Shown one piece after another: positions 41,635 through 61,162 of a DNA stretch of 64,000 nucleotides. Origin of the DNA: Deltaproteobacteria bacterium. GTDB taxonomy: Bacteria > Desulfobacterota > DSM-4660 > Desulfatiglandales > Desulfatiglandaceae. Location: the NCBI GenBank assembly GCA_021737785.1, contig JAIPDI010000016.1, positions 1 through 64,000 of the forward strand. Direction: 5' to 3'. Each line of letters opens with the position of its first letter. Positions within the stretch are counted from its first letter, which is position 1. The notes below the pieces were generated by a model. The model saw only the letters and a program-made list of their open reading frames with translations. It did not search any database and was not told the DNA's origin. Made by a program: the position numbers and the translations under genes.

Positions 41635-42159
41635 TCAACCGAGCAGGAGACGGACAACCTGCGGCAGGCAATCTTCCACCCACTGATCAAGCAGTTCATA
41701 GGGGGTCGCGTTTATGGGATGGGGAATGACCACAAACGGATAATCGGGAAACCCGTGGGCTACAGCCATGGCCTTTCCTGATGAGGTGAAGGGTTCCGTG
41801 CAGATGACGGCGGCCGGAATCCCAAACTGTTCCATGATGATTCCGTCGAGCACACTGCCCGAACTGCATGAACCTCAGTCCCCGATCCCGGCCACCACCA
41901 CTTGCGCCTTTTCCGCCAATTGCCGTGCCGCATCCTCGGAAACCCCATGGGAAGGGGACGGCTTCTTGAGAAGGATCTCACCTTCAAATCCGTGCAGATG
42001 TTTCAGCCGGCGCCCAATCCCTTTCAGCAGGTAATCGGAATTCCGCTTCCCATTATCAATGAGCCCCAGCGTAAGTCCTTTCAGGGACGCAGGCCGGGGC
42101 GCCGTGTCAAAGGCTGTCTTGACGGGCGCATTGGTGGGATCCAGCACTGTAATGGACAT
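41635..42159 (-). CDS. UGSC-family selenoprotein (in-frame UGA = Sec)
   Basis: 174 aa if the UGA at 41877-41875 is read as selenocysteine. Frame 42159-41878 gives MSITVLDPTNAPVKTAFDTA..., with RPASLKGLTLGLIDNGKRNSD and VVVAGIGD; the codons UGA GGU UCA UGC follow (Sec-Gly-Ser-Cys, the eponymous motif), then SSGSVLDGIIMEQFGIPA and DYPFVVIPHPINATPYELLD up to a normal stop. Reading UGA as stop would split a continuous family-like protein. A stem-loop follows the UGA (41846-41862). AAGGGGAG precedes the ATG. A redox role with a Sec/Cys pair is inferred. The partner gene starts upstream at 43267. Confidence 0.85.
41846..41862 (-). promoter_or_regulatory. Candidate bacterial SECIS stem-loop
   Basis: UCGGGC, loop AGUGU, GCUCGA on the minus strand: a 6-bp stem beginning 12 nt after the UGA, at the distance bacterial SECIS elements use. 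The loop carries Gs. Folding was done by eye. Confidence 0.5.
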
Positions 42160-42220
42160 ATCTATCTCCCCTTATTCTGTTTCACTGTTTCAAGAATTCC
42201 AACGGAATCCCGGTGACCGT

Positions 42221-43267
42221 TCAGGTGTCGCCTGCGCAAGGCGGACCGATCGATTCACTAACCGCCCTGGACATCTTCCGGTTGAACCATCCGAACATGC
42301 ATGCTGAAAACCTTCCAGCAACTCCTCCGGCCATGATCAGCAGGATCCGGTCCGGGGCGGAAACGGCCCGGACCATCTTTTCTTCATCTTCCGATGTCAG
42401 GGGGGTCTCATCCAGCCCCCCTCTTTTCAGGTCCGCCAGGGGGCGGCAGGCCTTTTCAAAGAGATATTCCTGCACCCCCTTTTTCGTCCAGCCCCCCTTA
42501 ATGAGGGTTTGATAGTGTTCAGGACAGATAATCACCGCGCATTCAACATCTCCCCCCATGTTGAAACTCCCCAGAGCCCGCATTCGGTCGGCAATGGTGT
42601 TCAGGATGTTTTCCGGTTTCAATGCGCTGTGGTTCTGGATCTGGTTGGGGCCCTCGGCAGCGAAAACAGTGACGGCGCTCGTTTCCCTCGGGAGTCCCCG
42701 AACCACATGAAGCGGTTCCCATTGGCTGTCTTGTTCGCTGAAACAGAAGGTGTACTTCCCCGGATGCCCAAGGGTCGTCCTGTCGAACTCTCTCCCTCCG
42801 AGGTTGTACAGGGCGAGTCTGACGGCCCTCCCGATGGTGGCGTTGGCACGATATCCGGGAGCCATGAGATTTTGACCGTTGTTGAGGCCCAATTCCTCTG
42901 AGATTGGACCATTGACCACCATCAGAATTCCCGCCCCGGCGGTGCTCGCCGTGACCCCGTGCAGTCCGAATTCAGGACGGGATATGCCGCGTACGGCCGC
43001 AACCACCACGGGAAAGTACTCCGGAAGGCATCCGGCCATGACTGCATTGATGGCGACCTTTTCCGCAGTAAACACCCTGTTTCGCTCGGGAATGGCCCCC
43101 AGGAGGTCCCCCGGTTCCAGCCCGGCGGCGTCAAGAAACCGGAGCACCTTGTCTTTGGTGGGAGGAACCACCGGGAGCCCGTCTGTCCATCCCTTTTGAA
43201 AAAAGATGTCTATGGCGTGATCAAGGCTTTCACACTCTATGGGTTGGGATACGAGACCCTGTTTCAT
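42221..43267 (-). CDS. Conserved protein of the GWTDGLPVVPPT type, UGSC partner
   Basis: 348 aa, soluble. Hallmarks: FFQKGWTDGLPVVPPTKDKVLRFLDAAG, VAINAVMAGCLPEYFPVVVAAV, ILMVVNGPISEELGLNNGQ, ANATIGRAVRLALYNLGG and GHPGKYTFCFSEQ. I recognise the family as widespread but without a biochemical function known to me. The ATG is preceded by GAGAGGAATT. It lies 61 nt upstream of the UGSC gene in the same direction, so they are an operon and probably subunits of one enzyme. Several conserved Cys and His residues could be catalytic. Confidence 0.75.
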   Translation of the reverse strand: MKQGLVSQPIECESLDHAIDIFFQKGWTDGLPVVPPTKDKVLRFLDAAGLEPGDLLGAIPERNRVFTAEKVAINAVMAGCLPEYFPVVVAAVRGISRPEFGLHGVTASTAGAGILMVVNGPISEELGLNNGQNLMAPGYRANATIGRAVRLALYNLGGREFDRTTLGHPGKYTFCFSEQDSQWEPLHVVRGLPRETSAVTVFAAEGPNQIQNHSALKPENILNTIADRMRALGSFNMGGDVECAVIICPEHYQTLIKGGWTKKGVQEYLFEKACRPLADLKRGGLDETPLTSEDEEKMVRAVSAPDRILLIMAGGVAGRFSACMFGWFNRKMSRAVSESIGPPCAGDT

Positions 43268-58429: not shown

Positions 58430-61162
58430 TCAGATTTTATCGATTCTGACGGCACAGACCTTGTACTCGGGAATCTGGGCCACGGGATCCAGTGCCGAAT
58501 TGGTGAGCCGGTTGGCGGCCGCCTCGGCAAAATGAAAGGGGATGAATACCACGTCGCCGTTGACTTTTCCGGTGACGCGGGCAACGGTTTCAATCCTGCC
58601 CCGGCGAGATGTAACGGCGACGCTGTCGCCGTGTTCCACGCCCAGTTTTTGCGCCAGATCCGGGCTGATCTCCACCCATGCGGTGGGCACGTGCTCGTTC
58701 AGGGGTGCCGCCCTGCGGCTCATGCTGCCGGAATGATAGTGTTCCAATACCCTCCCCGTGGTCAGCGTGATCGGGAACTCCTCATCAGGCAGCTCTGCAG
58801 GATCGCGGTGTTGGCAGGGGGTGAACAGGCCTTTCCCGCGGACAAACCCTCCCGCGTGGAGGAAAAGCGTTCCAGGATGTCTCGAATCAATGCAGGGCCA
58901 CTGTAATCCCGGTCCTGTTTCAAGGCGATTGTGGGAGATGCCGCCGTAGCTGGGCGTGAGCTTTGCGATCTCCTTCATAACGGCGGCCTGATCCCGATAA
59001 CTCATCTTATAGCCAAGGCGCCTCGACAGCTCACAGATAATTTGAAAATCCTGTCTTCTCTCTTCAAGGGGATCAATGGCCTTTCGCACCATCTGGACCC
59101 TTCGCTCGGTGTTGGTGAACGTGCCTGTCTTCTCGGCAAAGCTGACTCCCGGAAGAATGACGTCGGCAAGGAGCGCGGTCTCTGTGGGAAAAATGTCTTG
59201 TACCACAAGGAAATCCAGATTCTTGAGGGCCTTTTCCACATGATTGATGTCCGGATCCGTGAGCATGGGGTTTTCTCCCATGATGTAAAGCGCCTTCAGC
59301 GTGCCCTCTTGAGCCGCCTCCATCATCCGGGTGACCGTCATGCCGATCCTGTTATTCAGCTTGACGCCCCATGCCTTTTCAAACTTCTGCTGAACCGAAA
59401 AATCGTCCACCTTTTGGTACCCGGGGTAGACATTGGGAAGCGCCCCCATATCGCACGCCCCCTGGACATTGTTTTGACCCCTCAGGGGATTTACTCCCGT
59501 GGATCTCCTGCCGATCTGGCCGCAGAGCATGGCAAGATTCGCTATGGAGAGCACATTGTCCGTACCGCTGGTGTGCTGGGTGATGCCCATGGCATACAGG
59601 ATGGTGGCGCGTTCCGCCTTCGCATAGATACGGGCGGCCCGGCGCAGATCATCGGCCGGGATGCCGGTGATGCGCTCCACCTTCTCCGGCGTATACTCCC
59701 TGACCCCCTCCCTCACGGCCTCGAAGTTTTCACATCTCTCGTGGATGAATTCGCGGTTTTCGAGTCCTTCGGCGATGATGACATGCATCATGCCGTTCAG
59801 CCAGGCCACGTCCGTTCCGGGTCTCTGGTGGAGGCTCATCTCAGCAATGTCACAGAGTTCTATGTTTCTCGGTTCGATAACCATAAGCCTGGCGCCCCTT
59901 AACACGGCCTTCTTGATCTCAAGGGAGACAATGGGGTGGGTCTCGGTGGTGTTAGATCCGGTAACAAGGATACAATCCGAATCTATTATCTCGTCAATGG
60001 AGTTGGTCATGGCACCGGATCCGAACGCCTTTGCCAGACCTGCCACGGTGGAGGCATGGCAGAGGCGGGCGCAGTGATCCACATTGTTGGTGCCGACGGC
60101 CGCCCGCATGAATTTCTGAAACAGATAGTTCTCTTCATTGGTGGTGCGTGCGGAGGAGAAGCCGCCGATGGCATCCGGACCGTGTTCGGACCTGATCTTG
60201 AGAAGTCGCTGTTCCACAAGGTCGAGGGCCTCTTTCCAGGACACCCTCTCATAATCCTTCAGGGTGCCGGTCCCCTCCTTCTTGGGGACCCGTCGAACCA
60301 GGGGGTGGTTCAGACGATCAGCGGAATTGACAAAGCCCAGACCGAAACGGCCTTTGACACACAGGGTTGTGCGGTTGACGATATTCTTTTTCGCATCGGA
60401 GGAATCCACCTTCACAATCTCATTATTCCTGGTGCAGAGATCGAAGGTGCATCCGCATCCGCAGTAGGGACACGTGGTGTGCGTTTTTTTAAACTCCCAT
60501 TCCCGGCCCTTGCCCAGCCGCGATCTTTCAACGAGGGCCCCCGTGGGGCAAAGGGCAACGCAATTGCCGCAGAACACGCAGTTGGAGTCGCGGAGTTCCG
60601 CGCCCATCGGGGTCGATACCATGGTTGAGAACCCCCGGCGGGCAAAGTCGAACACGTAGTTGCCCTGGAGTTCGGCGCATGCCCTGATACAGCGACCGCA
60701 GAGTATGCACTTGTTGTAGTCGCGCACATAGTAGGGGTTGTTGTAATCCGGCGGAAAGTCGTAGGGATCGCGACTTCGGTATCTTTCAATATCCACATTG
60801 TACTCATAGGAGTATTTCTGAAGATCGCATGCCCCCGACTTTTCACAGACGGTGCAGTCGTTAGGATGGGCGGACCAGAGCAGTTCCAGGACGATGCGTC
60901 TGGCCTGGCGTACTTTTTCGCTGTTGGTGTGAACGATCCTCTCCCCCGGAAGATCCCCGATCCGGGTGGCGCACGACGGCATGAGCGCTCGTGCGCCCTC
61001 CACTTCCACCAGGCAGATGCGGCACGCCCCTGTGGGCGCGAGCACATCGGTGTGGCACAGTGTGGGGATCTCAATCCCGTTTTCTTGAGCCAGCTCCAGG
61101 ACCGTCCGGTCTCTGCCGGCCGTTATCGTTTTCCCGTCAATCGTGCAGGAAATATTTTCCAT
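58430..61162 (-). CDS. fdhA: Formate dehydrogenase catalytic subunit (Cys type)
   Basis: 910 aa molybdo/tungsto-bis-MGD enzyme. N-terminal [2Fe-2S] (CHTDVLAPTGACRICLVEV), His-Cys [4Fe-4S] (HPNDCTVCEKSGACDLQKY), two ferredoxin clusters (CILCGRCIRAC, CVFCGNCVALCPTGAL), then CPYCGCGCTFDLC for the [4Fe-4S] next to the active site. The metal ligand position reads DHCARLCHASTVAGL, so it is Cys, not Sec. The C-terminal MGD-binding domain has WVEISPDLAQKLGVEHGD. With the two upstream subunits it oxidises formate with NAD(P). GGAG precedes the ATG. Confidence 0.92.
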   Translation of the reverse strand: MENISCTIDGKTITAGRDRTVLELAQENGIEIPTLCHTDVLAPTGACRICLVEVEGARALMPSCATRIGDLPGERIVHTNSEKVRQARRIVLELLWSAHPNDCTVCEKSGACDLQKYSYEYNVDIERYRSRDPYDFPPDYNNPYYVRDYNKCILCGRCIRACAELQGNYVFDFARRGFSTMVSTPMGAELRDSNCVFCGNCVALCPTGALVERSRLGKGREWEFKKTHTTCPYCGCGCTFDLCTRNNEIVKVDSSDAKKNIVNRTTLCVKGRFGLGFVNSADRLNHPLVRRVPKKEGTGTLKDYERVSWKEALDLVEQRLLKIRSEHGPDAIGGFSSARTTNEENYLFQKFMRAAVGTNNVDHCARLCHASTVAGLAKAFGSGAMTNSIDEIIDSDCILVTGSNTTETHPIVSLEIKKAVLRGARLMVIEPRNIELCDIAEMSLHQRPGTDVAWLNGMMHVIIAEGLENREFIHERCENFEAVREGVREYTPEKVERITGIPADDLRRAARIYAKAERATILYAMGITQHTSGTDNVLSIANLAMLCGQIGRRSTGVNPLRGQNNVQGACDMGALPNVYPGYQKVDDFSVQQKFEKAWGVKLNNRIGMTVTRMMEAAQEGTLKALYIMGENPMLTDPDINHVEKALKNLDFLVVQDIFPTETALLADVILPGVSFAEKTGTFTNTERRVQMVRKAIDPLEERRQDFQIICELSRRLGYKMSYRDQAAVMKEIAKLTPSYGGISHNRLETGPGLQWPCIDSRHPGTLFLHAGGFVRGKGLFTPCQHRDPAELPDEEFPITLTTGRVLEHYHSGSMSRRAAPLNEHVPTAWVEISPDLAQKLGVEHGDSVAVTSRRGRIETVARVTGKVNGDVVFIPFHFAEAAANRLTNSALDPVAQIPEYKVCAVRIDKI

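Follow-up and report, generated by a model that had tools for sequence, protein, structure and literature searches.

A UGSC-family selenoprotein and its upstream partner: a candidate two-component reductase with a selenocysteine region of likely GrdB/PrdB ancestry

In the 64,000-nucleotide stretch of DNA analysed here (the window), one frame on the minus strand is interrupted by a single TGA and follows a long gene in the same direction. Is this TGA read as selenocysteine (Sec), and what could the two genes do together? The features at issue are given below.

41635..42159, minus strand: UGSC-family selenoprotein gene, 174 residues with Sec at residue 95; the gene ends with the TGA stop at 41635-41637
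41875..41877, minus strand: in-frame UGA, selenocysteine 95 of the Sec-Gly-Ser-Cys motif
41866..41868, minus strand: Cys98 of the UGSC motif, conserved as Cys in 97% of 101 aligned relatives
41846..41862, minus strand: SECIS-like hairpin of 7 pairs, UCGGGCA-GUG-UGCUCGA, with a loop that starts GU
42166..42171, minus strand: Shine-Dalgarno-like GGGGAG, 6 nt ahead of the UGSC ATG
42221..43267, minus strand: partner protein gene, GWTDGLPVVPPT type, 348 aa (AlphaFold2 pLDDT of 94.4)

The frame 42159-41635 holds one internal stop, the TGA of codon 95, which opens the motif codons TGA GGT TCA TGC (41877-41866, minus strand). The read-through protein matched PF24696 at 182.8 bits (cut-off of 25, E 7.6e-54), covering positions 1-171 of 172, and NF041046 at 132.3 bits (cut-off of 125). 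The window copy is like the UGSC family in this full-length match above both cut-offs, in motif and in size, and nothing essential sets it apart. In a marine survey, the family accounted for 8.2% of selenoprotein genes (PMC9402790). A scan of the window against Rfam at gathering thresholds gave no match, and searches of PDB sequences with UGSC, the partner and GrdB gave nothing convincing.

The hairpin begins 12 nt past the UGA, where the original prediction had placed it; the stem consists of 7 pairs, one of them G-U, and not of the 6 bp then reported. Taken by itself, it is barely more stable than its shuffles (z of about -1, a weak single-sequence statistic). Across 66 distinct relatives, 93.3% of the cells were paired, compared to at most 57% when the hairpin was slid, and the two-sided changes numbered 28 against 5.3 in shuffles. 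The loop starts with GU in almost all of these relatives. The genome of the window encodes selA (616.9 bits), selB (397 bits), tRNA-Sec (selC, 73.6 bits) and selD (372.9 bits), the last with an in-frame TGA of its own. Homologues do not end at the UGA: it is TGA in 75 of the 77 UGSC domains that adjoin partner genes in named genomes (four entries, left open by the regular expression, were assigned to TGA by eye) and Cys in the other two. Cys at this position (CGSC) was found in haloarchaea, Actinobacteria and Variovorax, and also in further plasmid relatives. The annotated ORF does stop at the TGA, as it would if the codon really ended translation or had arisen by an inactivating mutation, leaving a dead gene or a product of 94 residues; set against TGA at the same codon in nearly all adjacent relatives, a covarying hairpin with intact coding past the TGA, complete Sec machinery in the genome and the existence of Cys versions, such a reading is extremely improbable. 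That the UGA is read as Sec is as good as certain even without proteomics. The UGSC selenoprotein of the original prediction is supported by the frame, the two family matches, the covarying hairpin and the sel genes, and the hairpin, the sel genes and the Cys homologues for which it had proposed to look were all found. A formate dehydrogenase alpha subunit in the window (58430-61162, minus strand, 868 bits) had correctly been said to use Cys: its motif ARLCHAST has Cys at the position that is Sec in Sec forms, even though this genome uses Sec elsewhere.

The partner gene lies 61 nt upstream of the UGSC gene on the same strand. Its protein has no match in Pfam, in NCBIfam or among PDB sequences; the nearest named relative belongs to a Thermodesulfobacteriota genome, with 64% identity in the best segment. 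The charged residues Asp29, Arg147 and Glu178 are invariant across 77 partner sequences, and no Cys is. Profile comparison rejected a relationship between partner and UGSC, and no occurrence of the partner in viral contigs was confirmed. The two genes travel together. Among 395 genomes of the phylum, UGSC occurs in 37, the partner in 37 and both in 36, the two single-gene exceptions being a marginal UGSC match of 24.8 bits and a partner fragment of 133 residues. Among 61 relatives, UGSC scores above its cut-off in ten genomes, and these same ten, with no others, have the partner. Outside the phylum, 578 stretches encoding the partner turned up in the scan of named genomes; in the best 80 of these most adjoin UGSC, usually on the same strand and within about 300 nt. 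The best 80 include Chloroflexi, Rokubacteria, Binatia, Alpha-, Beta- and Gammaproteobacteria, Nitrospinota, Poribacteria, Actinobacteria and Haloarchaea. The functional unit with the upstream gene that had been predicted is borne out, with its conserved neighbour pairing, by joint presence in 36 of 38 carrier genomes, adjacency and fusion.

In the window, UGSC is a separate gene after the partner, whereas many relatives in the family are fused or in reversed order. In a sister family of the same order (f2), UGSC and partner mostly form one ORF of about 550-700 codons, with UGSC first. A fusion of UGSC to a domain named Unknown_1 was reported from marine metagenomes in 2008 (Zhang and Gladyshev, PMC2398784), and our partner is probably this domain. 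That report describes one fused protein, whereas the window has two genes.

A relative of the UGSC protein emerged from profile comparison. With a UGSC profile of 95 sequences and GrdB/PrdB sequences drawn from genomes of the same order, hhalign gave a probability of 95.7% (E 1e-8, score 60.8) over about 71 columns, with Sec placed on Sec, a strand ahead and an E..GIP strand behind. The probability was 88% (2.9e-6) when the Sec/Cys columns were masked and 92.9% on the hhalign server; in the control, 46 unrelated families taken from neighbouring genes reached at most 16% and a score of at most 29. The link is a remote one, because pairwise BLAST finds nothing between UGSC and GrdB/PrdB. From these profiles, the Sec region of UGSC is likely homologous to that of GrdB/PrdB at the level of a superfamily. 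Our literature searches turned up no statement of this link, though one may exist. UGSC resembles the PrdA/PrdB and GrdE/GrdB systems in its Sec region (strand, Sec-Gly-x-Cys, helix, E..GIP strand) and, with its partner, in the two-component layout. It differs in scoring below the threshold of PF07355, in having a partner unrelated to the pyruvoyl proprotein, and in occurring also in haloarchaea and in lineages usually regarded as aerobic. Unlike glycine reductase, the system comes without GrdA and without GrdC/D. In the window's own genome, neither PF07355 nor PF09338 (the pyruvoyl proprotein GrdE/PrdA) has a match, and the only Pfam family that the UGSC protein matches is PF24696. The partner was rejected as a relative of GrdE/PrdA (profile probability of 0.08%). 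Separate Sec proteins resembling PrdB, about 260-310 codons or more in length and with motifs such as UPFC, UPIC and UGIC, occur in the same order (loci L143, L144, L146, L148-L152, L156, L159 and L161), most of them without a PrdA/GrdE gene.

The neighbours of the pair were surveyed in the best 80 of the 578 named-genome loci, in 20 sister-family stretches and in 12 annotated plasmid regions. Thioredoxin genes adjoin some pairs: Arthrobacter has the run trxB-trxA-partner-UGSC, Roseovarius has trxB after UGSC, adjoining the pair, and Variovorax SRS16 has trxB about 2 kb upstream. Variovorax boronicumulans and Haloterrigena (L246, L247) have TrxB-like genes that score below the family cut-off, and L227 and L230 have TrxB homologues. 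Loci of this kind are a minority, and every plasmid case linked to trx is a Cys type. No trx gene adjoins the window pair, and no same-strand trx gene lies nearby in the best 80 of the 578 loci. The neighbourhood in some UGSC relatives recalls the grd operons, which have their own trxB and trxA; glycine reductase receives its electrons via thioredoxin (PMC10880999). Three alphaproteobacterial loci carry the cassette selA-selB-tRNA-Sec-partner-UGSC, two in Henriciella and one in Roseobacter (L121:3993-11867, L128:3954-11909 and L131:3873-9608), and in the Henriciella cassettes a gene for an Ndh-SelD fusion comes next after UGSC. This cassette looks like a transferable selenium unit built round one selenoprotein.

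The trx neighbours of some relatives and the UxxC motif would also fit a thioredoxin-type thiol/selenol oxidoreductase reducing disulfides or peroxides, with the partner as an adaptor for protein or small-molecule substrates. A thioredoxin-like fold was indeed suggested for UGSC in 2008 (PMC2398784). AlphaFold2 modelled a natural UGSC-partner fusion with a pLDDT of 90.7 and a pTM of 0.90, and predicted for the UGSC domain an alternating beta-alpha arrangement with Sec just ahead of a helix. Against the PDB this model gave weak mixed alpha/beta matches, flavodoxin-like proteins included, with no thioredoxin among the first 50. The topology and the matches contradict a thioredoxin fold around UxxC, as a prediction and not as a solved structure. 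With the profile homology pointing to GrdB/PrdB instead, and a strict tie to a 350-aa partner that would be odd for a general disulfide reductase, we consider a thioredoxin-type enzyme quite unlikely.

The mechanism proposed for PrdB has Sec attack the substrate carbon to give a selenoether, which a Cys resolves into a Se-S bridge that is then reduced (PMC3091704). GrdB-like proteins have been implicated in the C-F cleavage of fluoroacetate in Synergistota (PMC10838667), and other leaving groups are for this reason conceivable. The fluoroacetate operon of Cloacibacillus (PMC10838667) is a precedent in that GrdB-like proteins are implicated there at a non-amino bond; it is a different operon, likened to UGSC by description. 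Given the GrdB/PrdB homology, the PrdB mechanism, the trx neighbours and the C-F precedent, we therefore propose reductive carbon-heteroatom cleavage. The two genes would form one two-component, thioredoxin-fed selenoenzyme in which the partner replaces the pyruvoyl subunit, a proposal whose chances we judge to be evenly balanced. UGSC would be the small alpha/beta subunit, with Sec95 in the loop behind the third long strand. The partner would stand in for GrdE/PrdA and provide the substrate pocket, perhaps through Asp29, Arg147 and Glu178. The selenolate would attack the substrate carbon beside a heteroatom (N, S, O or halogen), as proposed for PrdB, so that the bond is cleaved and a selenoether formed. 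Cys98, the likely resolving cysteine, would convert the selenoether into a Se-S bridge, and the selenol would be regenerated by thioredoxin together with its reductase. The single redox enzyme of the original prediction is compatible with this scheme and is sharpened by the GrdB/PrdB-homologous Sec region and the trx neighbours of some relatives, with a reaction that we infer. Several observations speak against a two-component reductase. The homology is limited to the roughly 71 columns round Sec, and the unrelated partner has no invariant Cys. The window pair has no trx gene beside it, and Cys types account for the trx-linked plasmid cases. Some fused paralogues lack both Sec and Cys at the site and would misfit if catalytic, and the neighbours are very varied, pointing to no substrate.

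The closest PDB matches of the partner model (Foldseek) were class I fumarases and cyclic amide hydrolases. This weak likeness would suit a non-redox lyase, hydrolase or isomerase that works on carboxylic acids or CoA thioesters and uses Sec or Cys only as nucleophile or acid/base, and such an enzyme could also be at home among neighbours that include CoA-transferases, enoyl-CoA hydratases and HMG-CoA-lyase-like, adenylosuccinate-lyase-like and phosphosulfolactate-synthase-like proteins. The likeness to class I fumarases comes with a Foldseek E of 4e-5 and with TM-scores of only 0.18-0.37 for the top matches, and hhalign gave 0.13%; with superposition this poor and no support from profiles, a relationship of the partner to class I fumarases is doubtful. 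The second conserved Cys, three residues past Sec, suggests resolution of a selenium intermediate, and trx genes adjoin some pairs. A non-redox reaction seems on these grounds rather unlikely.

As to what a two-component reductase would act on, catabolic genes are common near separate pairs (luciferase-like monooxygenase, thiolase, TctC receptor, MFS, CoA-transferase III). In the 80 loci, 20 stretches and 12 plasmid regions, no family recurs often enough to name a substrate, and the substrate probably differs among lineages. Cys-type pairs in Arthrobacter and haloarchaea repeatedly have a phosphosulfolactate-synthase-like gene of the ComA family next to them (L237:4725-5513, L238:3835-4302 and L094:3254-4042; below the equivalog cut-off where tested). 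In haloarchaea it is accompanied by an adenylosuccinate-lyase-like gene, which scores against a coenzyme M synthesis model as well. A glycyl-radical enzyme of 800-820 aa is encoded close to two fused UGSC-partner genes, at distances of 8 and about 247 nt (L191:3450-7494, minus strand; L202:9627-13847, plus strand). The enzyme scores about 520 bits to PFL2-3, below every specific cut-off; the nearest specific model is that of (2S)-3-sulfopropanediol dehydratase, at about 490-500 bits with a cut-off of 1000. At L191, a flavodoxin/EFR1-like protein is encoded upstream.

Earlier publications already cover the UGSC family and the fusion of UGSC to an unknown domain, and the partner is without a model in Pfam or NCBIfam. 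The locus had been called under-described, which holds for its function; it does not hold for the family, which has Pfam and NCBIfam models and a fusion described in 2008 (PMC2398784). The present analysis adds that the two genes are strictly paired, that the hairpin covaries and that GrdB/PrdB ancestry is likely; it also adds the trx and sel cassettes, the Cys types and the expansions with predicted export. With the GrdB/PrdB link, a named partner and natural Cys versions, what was a hypothetical selenoprotein becomes an enzyme open to production and assay without selenium chemistry. Such versions occur in culturable bacteria and haloarchaea, some with thioredoxin genes of their own, and so allow easy assays.

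The expansions belong to the sister family f2, in which four genomes (G037, G042, G045 and G053) hold 12-23 UGSC matches each, nearly all fused. They are not part of a 2016 census, whose total was 33 UGSC genes across 26 genomes (PMC5029168). By a simple hydropathy test, 16 of 23 fused or fused-type copies have a hydrophobic, signal-like N-terminal segment; the 23 copies read were nearly all from f2, and one was truncated. A minority of fused copies have neither Sec nor Cys at the site (for example VGDSGQGAW, VADNGMGGW and GVKASETGS), and some of these adjoin other copies. It is possible, if less likely than not, that UGSC and its partner constitute an unrecognised superfamily of two-component reductases with kinship to glycine/proline reductase but active outside Stickland fermentation, in which the 12-23 mostly exported fused paralogues per f2 genome would serve different organic substrates and some Sec/Cys-less copies would perhaps be non-catalytic partners. 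Sec/Cys-less fused paralogues were seen at L192:8328-11840 (plus strand, a tandem pair), L219:298-3909, L220, L221, L222 and L223, and are possible non-catalytic subunits. Two in-frame TGA codons occur in fused copies at L195:8723-9271 (minus strand), G045:C155 and G037:C128; those of L195 are adjacent (GGUUGCIG) and may be a double Sec.
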